A model generated the notes under the pieces. It was not told where the DNA came from, searched no databases, and saw nothing but the letters and a program-made list of their open reading frames with translations. DNA of 64,000 bases from an uncultured Olsenella sp. (lineage in GTDB: Bacteria > Actinomycetota > Coriobacteriia > Coriobacteriales > Atopobiaceae): assembly GCA_949287905.1 (NCBI GenBank), contig CASEHX010000018.1, forward strand, positions 1 through 64,000. The letters run 5' to 3'. Below are positions 1-63,720 of the stretch, in pieces. The translations under genes were made by a program, and so were the position numbers. The stretch's first letter is position 1. The number at the start of each line of letters is the position of its first letter.

Positions 1-132
1 CCGCCTGCGTGGACGCCGGTCGGGACAGCACACTTTCTGTCCGAGTGCTAAAAACGGGGCGAGAGATATAAACACATGAGAAGCGGCCGCCTGCCTGCGC
101 AGACGGCCGCTTCGATAGCACACTTTTTGTCC
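1..132. repeat. R3: tandem copies of a 90-bp-spaced repeat at the window edge
   Basis: Two 39-base copies lie at 4-42 and 94-132, exactly 90 bases apart and about 70 percent identical. Their best conserved part is AGCACACTTT followed by TGTCC. The copies are separated by AT-rich sequence and by an inverted repeat at 82-112 (AAGCGGCCG ... CGGCCGCTT). No ORF is credible here. The array may continue to the left of the window. I do not recognise the family. Confidence 0.6.
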
Positions 133-147
133 TATAACCCTTGTTTT

Positions 148-341
148 CGCTTGACGAAAGTGGCCTCGTCTTAGCCAAAACCCGCAATATGACTGAGACG
201 AGCCCGCTTTCGTCAAGCGATTTGATCTAGAGGCTGAGACGAGGCCGCTACCGTCAAGCGATCTGAGCTAGAAGCTGAGACGAGCCCACTACCGTCAAGC
301 AACTTGGCTTTGAAACTGAGACGAGCCGTGCTTCACTGAAC
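148..341. repeat. R1 array, locus A: inverted/direct 27-bp repeats with 41-bp period
   Basis: One copy in minus orientation (148-176, containing CTCGTCTTAG at 165) is followed by four copies in plus orientation. Their CTGAGACGAG boxes begin at 193, 234, 275 and 316, so the period is exactly 41 bases. Each copy continues as a degenerate GCCCGCTTTCGTCAAG. The minus-to-plus offset is 28 bases (165 to 193). The same family and the same offset recur at 39410-39710. The region is downstream of the tRNA-Met terminator and shows no coding signal. Confidence 0.85.
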
Positions 342-1820: not shown

Positions 1821-3536
1821 TTAGGCTCGGGCGGGGACGACGCGCTCGGTGAGCCAGGAGACGAGCTCGTCCATCGGCACGTCGAAGCGCTCGCCGGTCT
1901 CGCGGACCTTGACCTCGGCCATGCCGTTCGCAACGCCACGCTTGCCCAGAATCACCTGGTATGGGATGCCGATGAGGTCCGCGTCGGCAAACTTGACGCC
2001 CGGGCGCTCCTTGCGGTCGTCGAGAAGGACCTCGAGGTCGGCGGCGCAGAGCTCGTCCACGACCCTCTCCGCGACCGGCGTGACCACATCGTCGTTCACC
2101 GCAAGCGGCACGACCTCGACCTCGTAGGGCGCCACGCAGACGGGCCAGGAGATGCCGTGCTCGTCGTTGTGCTGCTCCACGACGGCAGCCAGCGTGCGGG
2201 AGACGCCGATGCCGTAGCAGCCCATGAGGAACGGGCGCTCCACGCCGTCCTCGTCCGCGAAGGTGGCGCCCATAGACTCGGAGTACTTGGTGCCGAGCTG
2301 GAAGACCTGCGAGATCTCGATGCCGCGGGCACTCTTGAGAGCGGCGCCGCAGTGCGGGCAGGGGTCGCCCTCCTTCACGCTCACGAGGTCGGCCCACTCG
2401 TCGACCTCGAAGTCGCGCCCGGGCTTGGCGCCCGTGAAGTGGTAGTCCACCTCGTTGGCGCCGCAGGTCCAGCTCTGGCTCTCGCGCAGGGACTCGTCGC
2501 AGACCAGACGGATGCCGTGCGGAAGCCCCACGGGGCCGATGAAGCCCTTGTGCAGGCCGGCCAGCTCGAGCTCCTCGTCCGTCATGAGGTGGTAGGCGCC
2601 GAAGAGCTTGCCCGCCTTGATCTCGTTGAGCTCGTGGTCGCCGGGAACGATGGCAACGACGTTCGTGCCGTCCTCGGCAACGAGTGCGAGGGACTTGCGG
2701 GTGCCGTTCTCAGGGAAGCCGAAGAAGTCCGCCACGGCCTCGATGGAGCCGAGGCCCGGGGTGTGGACCTTCGTGAGCGTTCCGTCTCCGGGACCCTCGG
2801 TCACGGGCACCTTGGTGGCGGCAGCCTCGACGTCGGCGGCAAAGCCGCAGTCGCAGTAGACGAGCTCGGCCTCGCCGGAGTCGGCAAGCGCCATGAACTC
2901 CACGGAGGTGTCGCCGCCGATCTGGCCGGAGTCGGCCACGACAGGCAGCGCGTAGATGCCGCAGCGCTCGGCGATGCGCGCGTAGGCGGCCTTCTCCTGC
3001 TCGTAGCACTCCTGCAGCGACTCCTGCGTGGCGGAGAAGCTGTAGGCGTCCTTCATGATGAACTCGCGGCCGCGCATGAGGCCAAAGCGCGGGCGCATCT
3101 CGTCGCGGAACTTGTCCTGAATCTGGTAGAGCGTGCACGGGAGCTGCTTGTAGGAGCGCAGCTCGTTCTTCACGAGGTCCGTGAAGGTCTCCTCGTGCGT
3201 GGGGCCCAGGGCAAACTCGCGACCGTGGCGGTCGGAGATGCGCATGAGCTCGGGGCCGTAGGCGTCCCAGCGGCCGGACTCATGCCAGAGCTCGGCGGGC
3301 GTGAGGATGGGAACCATCATCTCCTGGGCGCCGATGGCCTCCATCTCGTCGCGGATGACGGCCTCGATCTTGCGGATCGAGCGCCACGCGAGCGGCAGGT
3401 AGCTGTAGAGGCCGGCGGCGGTCTTGCGGATCATGCCGGCGCGCAGCAGCAGCCGGTGGCTCGCGAGCTCCGCCTCGGCCGGATCCTCCTTGAGCGTGGG
3501 CGCGTACAGCGCGGACATCTTCTGATAACGCTTCAC
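1821..3536 (-). CDS. proS: Prolyl-tRNA synthetase (bacterial type)
   Basis: Charges tRNA-Pro with proline in the cytoplasm. The 571-residue protein has the bacterial ProS order: class II core with ALGPTHEE near residue 110 and motif 2 (FRDEMRPRFGLMRGREF) near 140, an inserted YbaK-type editing domain at about 225-380, motif 3 (GCYGIGVSR) near 440, and a C-terminal anticodon-binding domain. The GTG at 3536 is preferred over the upstream ATG at 3557: AGAAGGGA precedes the GTG at good spacing, and the seven extra residues have no ribosome-binding site. It follows ispG on the same strand across a 338-base gap that holds two structured elements. Confidence 0.95.
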   Translation of the reverse strand: MKRYQKMSALYAPTLKEDPAEAELASHRLLLRAGMIRKTAAGLYSYLPLAWRSIRKIEAVIRDEMEAIGAQEMMVPILTPAELWHESGRWDAYGPELMRISDRHGREFALGPTHEETFTDLVKNELRSYKQLPCTLYQIQDKFRDEMRPRFGLMRGREFIMKDAYSFSATQESLQECYEQEKAAYARIAERCGIYALPVVADSGQIGGDTSVEFMALADSGEAELVYCDCGFAADVEAAATKVPVTEGPGDGTLTKVHTPGLGSIEAVADFFGFPENGTRKSLALVAEDGTNVVAIVPGDHELNEIKAGKLFGAYHLMTDEELELAGLHKGFIGPVGLPHGIRLVCDESLRESQSWTCGANEVDYHFTGAKPGRDFEVDEWADLVSVKEGDPCPHCGAALKSARGIEISQVFQLGTKYSESMGATFADEDGVERPFLMGCYGIGVSRTLAAVVEQHNDEHGISWPVCVAPYEVEVVPLAVNDDVVTPVAERVVDELCAADLEVLLDDRKERPGVKFADADLIGIPYQVILGKRGVANGMAEVKVRETGERFDVPMDELVSWLTERVVPARA

Positions 3537-3631: not shown

Positions 3632-3711
3632 CGGCGGGGCTGACCTCCGGCGCTCAGACAGCTTGGCGCAGAGAACGCGCCAAGAACTCGCGGCGGAGGT
3701 CAGCCCCGCCG
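3632..3711 (+). repeat. Element E1: nested hairpin with conserved internal boxes
   Basis: An outer 17-bp perfect stem (3632-3648 with 3695-3711) encloses box A GGCGCTCAGACAG (3649-3661), an 8-bp perfect inner hairpin CTTGGCGC/GCGCCAAG with loop AGAGAAC, and box B AACTCGCGGC (3685-3694). The same two boxes recur in opposite orientation in E2, while the arms differ. It lies upstream of proS, which is on minus. Confidence 0.8.
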
Positions 3712-3757
3712 GGAAGGCGGCCATAGCGTCATGCCGTCGATGGTTGTCGCATAGTTG

Positions 3758-3880
3758 ACGTAGGTCCCGCGGCAGCGCGGGCAATTCCCGCCGCGAGTTC
3801 CGCAGCCGCGTCCTTTGCGGCGAGGACCTGTCTGAGCGCCGGGGATTGCCCGCGCTGCCGCGGGGCAGGACGACCTACGT
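3758..3880 (-). repeat. Element E2: second, inverted copy of the nested hairpin
   Basis: Read on minus: box A GGCGCTCAGACAG (3828-3840), an inner hairpin region with loop AAAGGAC between GCCGC and GCGGC, and box B AACTCGCGGC (3790-3799). It is enclosed by long arms: 3767-3789 pairs with 3841-3863 with one mismatch, and ACGTAGGTC at 3758-3766 pairs with 3872-3880 after an asymmetric insert. The outermost arm contains the ispG stop codon, so the element begins at the end of that gene. Confidence 0.8.
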
Positions 3881-4951
3881 GAAGCGTCGCTCGATCTCGG
3901 AGAAGAGCTCGTCGACGGCGTCTACCTCGTCGACGGTTCGGATCTTCTCGCCGGAAGCGAAGAGCACGGCCTTGCCGCGGCCACCCGCAAGTCCGATGTC
4001 AGCGCCCTTAGCCTCGCCGGGGCCGTTAACCACGCAGCCCATGACGGCAACGGTGATGGGGGCACGCACGGTGGAAAGGCGCCGCTCGACCTCCGCGGCC
4101 ACACCCATGAGGTCCCACTGGCAGCGTCCGCAGGTCGGACAGCTCACGAGCTCGGGGCGAAGACGCCTGAGGCCTACGGCCGAGAGCAGGTCCCAGGCTA
4201 CGTTGACCTCCTCGACCGGGTCTGCCGTAAGCGAGAGGCGGATGGTGTCCCCGATGCCCTCCATGAGCAGGGTGCCTATCGCCGCCGCGTTCTTGACGGT
4301 CCCCTGACGGAGGGTGCCCGCCTCGGTCACGCCGATGTGGAGCGGGACGTCTGGCAGCTCACGGGAGAGGGCGCGGTTAACCTCGACGGTCGTGGGGACA
4401 CCGTGGGCCTTCGCGGAGAGGACGATGTCGGCAAAGCCGCGGGAGCGGAAGTGGTCGACGAACGAAATGGCGGATCCCACGAGTTTCTCCACGTGCGTGA
4501 GGTCCTCGCGCTCGGCAAAGGAAGGGTCGAGCGATCCCGCGTTGACGCCGATGCGAATGGGGATGCCCGCGGCGCCCGCCTCGTCGATCACCGCGTCCAC
4601 CCGATCCCAGCTCCCGATGTTGCCAGGGTTCACGCGCAGCGCCGCAGCCCCGCGGCGGCAGGCCTCGATGGCGAGGTGGTGATCGAAGTGGATGTCCGCA
4701 ACCACGGGAAGCGGCGATCCCTCGCAGATGGCGGAGAAGCCCTCGAGGGCGGCGGAGGAGGGAACGGCAACGCGGATGATCTCGCAACCGGCGTCTGCGA
4801 GCCGACGAATCTGAGCGAGGGTGGCGTCGGCATCGGCCGTGTCGGTCGTGCACATCGACTGCACCGACACCGGAGCACCGCCGCCCACGACGACGTCCCC
4901 AACGTGGACGGACCTGGTCATCTGGCGCGGCTGCAGGGACTTCTCGTCCAT
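3875..4951 (-). CDS. ispG: 4-hydroxy-3-methylbut-2-enyl diphosphate synthase (flavodoxin/ferredoxin)
   Basis: Catalyses the reductive ring opening of methylerythritol cyclodiphosphate, the penultimate MEP-pathway step, with a [4Fe-4S] cluster. The 358-residue protein has the N-terminal TIM barrel (VQSMCTTDT near the start, LRVNPGNIG mid-barrel) and the C-terminal cluster domain with SCPTCGRC and GCVVNGPGEAKGADIG supplying the cysteines. The ATG at 4951 follows GGATAGGAGCATC, where the Shine-Dalgarno overlaps the rseP stop codon. This indicates coupling to rseP and dxr, another MEP gene, two genes upstream. The last codon lies in the arm of element E2. Confidence 0.95.
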   Translation of the reverse strand: MDEKSLQPRQMTRSVHVGDVVVGGGAPVSVQSMCTTDTADADATLAQIRRLADAGCEIIRVAVPSSAALEGFSAICEGSPLPVVADIHFDHHLAIEACRRGAAALRVNPGNIGSWDRVDAVIDEAGAAGIPIRIGVNAGSLDPSFAEREDLTHVEKLVGSAISFVDHFRSRGFADIVLSAKAHGVPTTVEVNRALSRELPDVPLHIGVTEAGTLRQGTVKNAAAIGTLLMEGIGDTIRLSLTADPVEEVNVAWDLLSAVGLRRLRPELVSCPTCGRCQWDLMGVAAEVERRLSTVRAPITVAVMGCVVNGPGEAKGADIGLAGGRGKAVLFASGEKIRTVDEVDAVDELFSEIERRFT

Positions 4952-63320: not shown

Positions 63321-63720
63321 GACGCTTATGCGCGGTTGCGACGGCTGTGCACATCAAAGACGGTTGTGCACACCCCTAACGGGAGGCACGACAACGCGAC
63401 GGTTGTGCGCTGCGCGAAAGGGTATGCGCAATGCCGCCGGTTGTGCGCATAGCACACATTCATAGATCCGCAGGTAGACGAATTGGCGAGAAGAACCTCT
63501 CCTCGGGAAACTTCGCACAACCGCTCAGACCGCGCACAACCGAAGCCGTTGCGCACAGCCGTCACCGTTGCGCACAGCCGTCACCGTTGCGCACCACCGC
63601 TTCCGTTGCGCACCACCGCTTCCGTTGCGCACAGCCGTCACCGTTGCGCATACCCGTCAGAAACGCGCTCAACCGCAGCCGTGCCGCGCAGCCTTCGCCA
63701 ACACGCATGGCCGTCGAGGG
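63321..63720. repeat. R2 array, right: 19-bp repeats, seven inverted then eleven direct
   Basis: Minus-orientation boxes (GTGCGC or variant) begin at 63328, 63347, 63366, 63385, 63405, 63424 and 63443. Plus-orientation copies (CGCACARCCG or variant) begin at 63514, 63533, 63552, 63571, 63590, 63609, 63628, 63647, 63666, 63685 and 63704, an exact 19-base period eleven times. The best unit is CGCACAGCCGTCACCGTTG. The minus-to-plus offset is 71 bases, identical to the left array. Confidence 0.92.
63469..63505. repeat. R2 core, right copy
   Basis: Ungapped match to 61921-61957 (27 of 37). The dyad is CGAGAA with TCCTCG, one mismatch from perfect. Confidence 0.8.

Follow-up and report, generated by a model that had tools for sequence, protein, structure and literature searches.

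The spacer between ispG and proS in this uncultured Olsenella sp. carries an inverted pair of elements, E1 and E2, which are two members of a family of nested palindromes 75-130 nt long. Variable outer arms and a variable inner hairpin enclose two short boxes that are invariant across four phyla, and the copies sit at gene ends under an orientation rule. On balance, we favour the view that E1 and E2 are an inverted pair from a new family of extragenic palindromes similar to REP/BIME repeats. The family would have spread horizontally and be maintained at the 3' ends of genes; in each copy, an asymmetric internal-loop core that does not vary lies between outer arms and an inner hairpin that do. 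The motif is not specific to ispG-proS, which is one of many loci that carry it.

Two nested palindromes between ispG and proS

Within the window, meaning the whole 64,000-nucleotide stretch of DNA that was analysed, open reading frames and a gene finder place proS (prolyl-tRNA synthetase, named from its protein sequence) at 1821-3536 and ispG, present in 30 of 31 genomes of the genus, at 3875-4951, both on the minus strand. The initial annotation described paired nested hairpins with shared boxes and opposite orientations in the spacer between these genes, and both are there: E1 (3632-3711, plus strand) lies about 95 nt upstream of proS and antisense to it, and E2 (3766-3864, minus strand) directly downstream of ispG in the sense orientation. 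The 5' outer arm of E1, on the box A side and toward proS (3632-3648), is complementary to its 3' outer arm (3695-3711) at 17 of 17 positions. Between the arms follow box A (GGCGCTCAGACAG, 3649-3661, an exact match to the invariant family core), an inner hairpin of the type that we call T1 (CTTGGCGC-AGAGAAC-GCGCCAAG, 3662-3684) and box B (AACTCGCGGC, 3685-3694). E2 has the same order on the minus strand: 5' outer arm (3841-3864), box A (again an exact match, 3828-3840), an inner hairpin of type T2 (GTCCTCGCCGC-AAAGGAC-GCGGCTGCGG, 3800-3827), box B (3790-3799) and 3' outer arm (3766-3789), the arms pairing at 23 of 24 positions with one A.C mismatch. Only E2 has an additional 8-bp basal stem, in which 3873-3880, containing the ispG stop codon (3875-3877), forms the 5' side and 3758-3765 (ACGTAGGT on the plus strand) the 3' side. 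The spacer inside the inverted pair (3712-3757) has about 70% identity among orthologues. Boxes A and B are identical in E1 and E2 and the 7-nt loops are AGAGAAC and AAAGGAC, whereas the outer arms (17 and 24 bp) and the inner stems are unlike in sequence, each being self-complementary. Neither element is followed by a run of T residues; the sequence after E1 is GGAAGGCGG and that after E2 is GACCTACG.

Folded as DNA, E1 and E2 gave z-scores of -7.8 to -8.2 on both strands, and folded as RNA -6.7 to -7.5; no shuffled sequence was equally stable in either case. The boxes had been taken to be unpaired, which is correct only in part: CGC/GCG and GA/TC pair within them, and what stays unpaired is a TCA bulge, a CAG/AAC internal loop and a G.G mismatch. 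The invariant segment thus forms an internal loop with bulges and is not open throughout.

The proposal that the arms differ and yet covary was borne out by many more copies. Among 20 aligned copies from the same genome, 94.3% of cells pair and both sides have changed in 14 of 23 pairs; the covariation score was 0.474, compared to 0.140 for shuffled alignments (0/500) and at most 0.11 for slid ones. A cross-phylum model of 22 sequences scored 0.743 compared to 0.181 when shuffled. When further copies were checked for unpaired arms, 2618 of 2783 arm cells were Watson-Crick paired in more than 120 unique copies. The outer arms average about 23 bp and differ in sequence in every copy, yet about 94% of their positions form Watson-Crick pairs; arm position 4 is a fixed A.C or C.A mismatch in 41 of 123 copies of the genus. 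Two main types of inner hairpin recur, T1 (CTTGCCGC/GCGGCAAG) and T2 (TCCTCGCCGC/GCGGCTGCGG), and paired copies frequently combine one of each.

A repeat family with a patchy distribution across phyla

The genome that contains the window has 31 copies by covariance model (E<=0.001), 37 matching segments in a DNA search with the locus, and 13 copies by exact box pattern. The covariance-model search across Coriobacteriia that had been suggested from E1 and E2 found the element in all 31 genomes of the genus, at 1-30 copies each, and, with the cross-phylum model, in 82 of 296 sampled Coriobacteriia, deep families included. Named relatives with the element are Olsenella, Thermophilibacter and other Atopobiaceae; one genome (G488) has 37 copies, and two loci from relatives (L151 and L166) carry the same ispG-proS pair. 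Every carrier lineage has box A, as GGCGCTCRGACAG, opposite box B within a hairpin.

A search with the box pattern retrieved Omnitrophota, one Eisenbacteria MAG and one Gemmatimonadota MAG, all with the complete nested structure. Eisenbacteria and Gemmatimonadota are represented by one MAG each, and their copies could lie on misbinned contigs; Omnitrophota carriers number 17 of 237 sampled genomes, with 56 copies in one and 3-13 in four others. The model is specific, since the 297 other Gemmatimonadota of the 298 sampled, which served as a negative control, gave no element-like match. A longer core, GGCGCTCAGACAGTCCTCG..CTGCGGAACTCGCGGC, is common to deep Coriobacteriia and the other phyla, and T2 therefore looks like the ancestral inner type. 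Pattern matches in Xanthomonas, Lysobacter, Polaromonas, Plesiocystis, Caballeronia and Phycisphaerales were without arms and were taken as chance; two viral matches, also without arms, were discarded. Neither plasmid nor phage records contained the exact 44-nt core, and viral contigs lacked the T2 pattern. At the gathering score, 4227 Rfam covariance models found only tRNAs in the window, and a relaxed search added only sub-threshold chance matches, nearly all to microRNA models. A literature search, with subscription journals outside its coverage, found no description of the repeat or of the boxes as a repeat.

The window also holds other repeats. The motif GGCGAGAAGRAC has 25 sites (e.g. 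63485-63496, plus) when at most one mismatch is allowed, compared to an expectation of 1.7 from shuffles; 18 are on the plus and 7 on the minus strand. Many outer arms contain it too, as does the region upstream of proS in most relatives. The repeat TTGACGAAAGCGGGCTCGTCTCAG, distinct from the element, lies close to the start of the contig, in window positions 1-300 (L058, 217-268), and in L140 near 859; relatives carry it as well, in part as an inverted repeat.

Position and orientation at gene ends

Using gene calls from a gene finder trained on the examined loci, we found nearly all copies to be intergenic. Sense copies in the genus start a median of 7 nt past the stop codon; Omnitrophota copies are 36 sense to 1 antisense and start a median of 21.5 nt (about 20) past it. 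The 18 single antisense copies in the genus are oriented with box A facing the following gene, whose start lies a median of 40 nt away. All 13 element pairs between co-directional genes are arranged sense-then-antisense ('+-'), never the reverse, and one further pair lies between convergent genes. Divergent spacers are avoided (4 of 82 element groups in the genus).

One Omnitrophota genome (G060) has a second hairpin, with a constant CATCGAG loop and a terminator-like T-rich tail, about 70 nt after 31 of its 38 copies and downstream of both arms, and all but one of the 13 hairpins of this kind within 82 kb come after an element. There, the element is therefore a 3'-UTR hairpin ahead of a terminator-like hairpin, and the latter presumably acts as a terminator. 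Intergenic regions in this genome (L254-L293) are modular: the element hairpin is followed by the constant-loop CATCGAG hairpin with its variable stem, then by a TTTCGTTAT..ATAACGAAA or CGTCACATGTGTGACG palindrome, and then by a promoter-like stretch before the next gene.

Conservation, turnover and nesting of copies

Across 28 genomes of the genus, the ispG-proS spacer has the pair present, partly deleted, fused or absent. Where the pair is present, the boxes are 97% identical among orthologues, compared to 90% for ispG coding sequence, 70% for the spacer, 70% for the inner hairpin and 60-69% for the arms, so that conservation within the spacer is highest in the boxes. Both sides of an arm change jointly. 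Inner arms were also replaced jointly at this locus (CATATGCCCC vs GGCAACCTCC), and inner types have been exchanged under unchanged outer arms (L183 vs L181). One genome (G002) has a fused E1-E2 pair, in which a neighbouring arm has been copied anew, in inverted form, as the 3' arm of E1. In another (G030, L194), tandem repeats around GCCGAGAAATGCCGCCCTCTGTACC occupy the place of E1. At a different gene end, the stop codon is clean in L088 and occupied by elements in L073, L054 and L170; comparison of empty and occupied sites, available at species distance only, revealed no target-site duplication.

Elements are also nested within the inner hairpin of older ones (G000 C1:85004-85168, L170, G488 and G441), with further cases at L364, L394, L406, L407, L411 and L418. 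That the boxes stay constant at fixed sites argues for a function or for homogenisation among copies; nesting, patchiness and swings in copy number argue for mobility. Copy number, presence and absence at sites, nesting and the patchy cross-phylum spread indicate that the repeat is mobile or was formerly so.

Candidate mobility enzymes

Y1 (RAYT-like) transposases are encoded in 28 of 31 genomes of the genus. However, several carriers of the element lack a RAYT (G004, G019, G026, G441, G360, G063 and G065), the 20 RAYT loci of the genus have no element within 1.5 kb at E<=0.01 (one marginal match, E=0.36), and the RAYT genes are flanked by palindromes and repeats other than the element. We therefore rejected mobilisation by RAYT as a present requirement. 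No transposase was found among the genes between closely spaced copies in G060, nor did we find other candidates for a mobility enzyme.

At L298 (G000:C28 near 15150), a Y1 transposase gene of the genome that contains the window has three tandem copies of GTGACAAAGGGGTCGTAGCCGACTGTCAC before it and one inverted copy after it, its own cognate repeat. Naked palindromes of the TTGGGGAC(AG) type, with arms of 27-52 bp, stand directly after stop codons at L083 630, L113 3063, L117 6846, L122 1877 and L116 2449. They constitute a second palindrome family, enriched around RAYT-like genes.

Comparison with known systems

Like REP, BIME and REPIN sequences, the element is a multi-copy extragenic palindrome found by gene 3' ends and rarely between divergent genes, which frequently forms inverted pairs of two subtypes and is patchy between species (PMC3733652). 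Published REPs follow ORFs at no more than 20 bp from the 3' end, also as inverted dimers (PMC3733652), and those within 15 nt of a stop codon stall ribosomes (PMC12306157). There are clear differences, however. The element is 75-130 nt long, compared to 20-40 bp for a REP; its constant part is the internal loop and its stems are free, whereas the stem sequence of a REP is family-specific; and its core is the same in Actinomycetota and Omnitrophota. It has neither the unpaired GTAG or CGTC end tag nor the link to a RAYT flanked by the repeat that marks the GTAG type. A CGTC/GTAG tag was a first impression from single flanks, and CGTC is present within 10 nt 5' of the arm in just 21 of 127 copies. 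The TAG found 5' of the arm is mostly the stop codon of the host gene, with at most mild enrichment in the genus (45/61 vs 362/584). The element thus works like a REP, yet is not assigned to the GTAG or CGTC REPs.

Other systems share some of these features. An integron attC site is a hairpin just past a stop codon with conserved asymmetric bulged boxes and a variable terminal structure, and in this the element is alike. Unlike attC, its invariant boxes are, by inspection, without GTTRRRY/RYYYAAC core sites, it has variable paired arms outside the boxes, and its copies are dispersed singly beside housekeeping genes rather than in cassette arrays. With cis-regulatory RNA motifs of the Rfam type it shares covarying stems, constant unpaired segments and a sense 3'-UTR position, but it differs in being dispersed beside unrelated genes, in matching no Rfam model and in the lack of an observed G.U preference. 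Long intergenic palindromes also occur in the same genomes as MITEs or RAYT-transposon palindromes (GGGGACAG palindromes and GTGACAAAGGGGTCGTAGCC repeats); their sequence differs from that of the element, and it is they, not the element, that surround Y1 transposase genes.

Alternative explanations

The initial annotation left the choice between an RNA motif and a mobile palindrome. Its broader claim, a structured element under selection, agrees with the covariation, the box conservation and the signs of mobility, but the arms lack the G.U excess that would argue for RNA. Outside positions 3-4, the arms in the genus have 36 G.T to 31 A.C, and at positions >=5 over all loci 57 G.U to 69 A.C; because control hairpins (H2) likewise show no G.U excess, this test is weak and we do not rely on it. 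Sense bias and placement favour an RNA role, while antisense partners and, as far as this weak test goes, the parity of G.U and A.C favour maintenance at the DNA level. The element could be a structured RNA acting in cis: a putative conserved RNA-binding protein would bind the asymmetric internal loop of this 3'-UTR hairpin and control termination or decay of the upstream mRNA, with spread being secondary. The 36:1 sense bias, the start just past the stop codon, the linked CATCGAG-loop hairpin in G060 and the 97% conservation of the boxes are all consistent with it. We nevertheless consider this reading somewhat unlikely, given the antisense partners and single antisense copies, the patchy distribution and nesting, and the lack of a match in Rfam. 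Ordinary intrinsic terminators that share sequence by chance would likewise stand just past stop codons, and inner hairpins in deep Coriobacteriia are terminator-like. This explanation is very improbable: it is contradicted by an internal loop that is constant across phyla, by the missing T-runs after E1 and E2, by the separate terminator-like hairpin after the element in G060 and by the existence of antisense copies.

Two further explanations concern the origin of the arms, which are unrelated among loci yet always complementary. The core may be a folded single-strand DNA recombination site, similar to attC or IS200-type sites, whose insertion point is the tip of a palindrome already in place, either a terminator or an older copy; the outer arms would then be target and not element. 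The Russian-doll nesting fits this, and REP dimers inserted into palindromes have been published (PMC3733652). However, few naked hairpins of comparable strength lie past stop codons and most of those are members of other repeat families, several empty sites have weak hairpins only, and no recombinase was identified; we regard this explanation as improbable. Alternatively, a mobile hairpin might make its own arms, with sequence beside the constant core being copied inverted to the other side on insertion or repair; the arms would then be locus-specific, and a single conserved factor would recognise the core in both Actinomycetota and Omnitrophota. Such copying predicts what is seen in the fused pair of G002 and in the inner arms replaced together at ispG-proS, although we think it unlikely overall.

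We return to the REP/BIME-like family as the explanation that we favour. In this view, a putative enzyme acting in trans would have moved the hairpin, so spreading the family horizontally, and the box A/box B core would be the docking site of a putative conserved factor. Copies may be retained beside stop codons, where, as hairpins at gene ends, they would limit read-through or shield the mRNA 3' end, and arm complementarity may be kept by copying one arm onto the other, plus selection. Against this explanation, selfish repeats alone are insufficient because the boxes are more conserved than neighbouring coding sequence, and an RNA element could likewise account for the strong sense bias and the invariant internal loop.

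Extragenic palindromes described so far hold their stems constant and differ from one lineage to another, whereas this element keeps its internal loop, the same 20-odd bases in distant phyla, and leaves its stems free. A constant core with free stems makes both the putative factor that recognises it and the origin of long perfect palindromes directly testable. Many gene 3' ends in gut Atopobiaceae carry this unannotated structured element.
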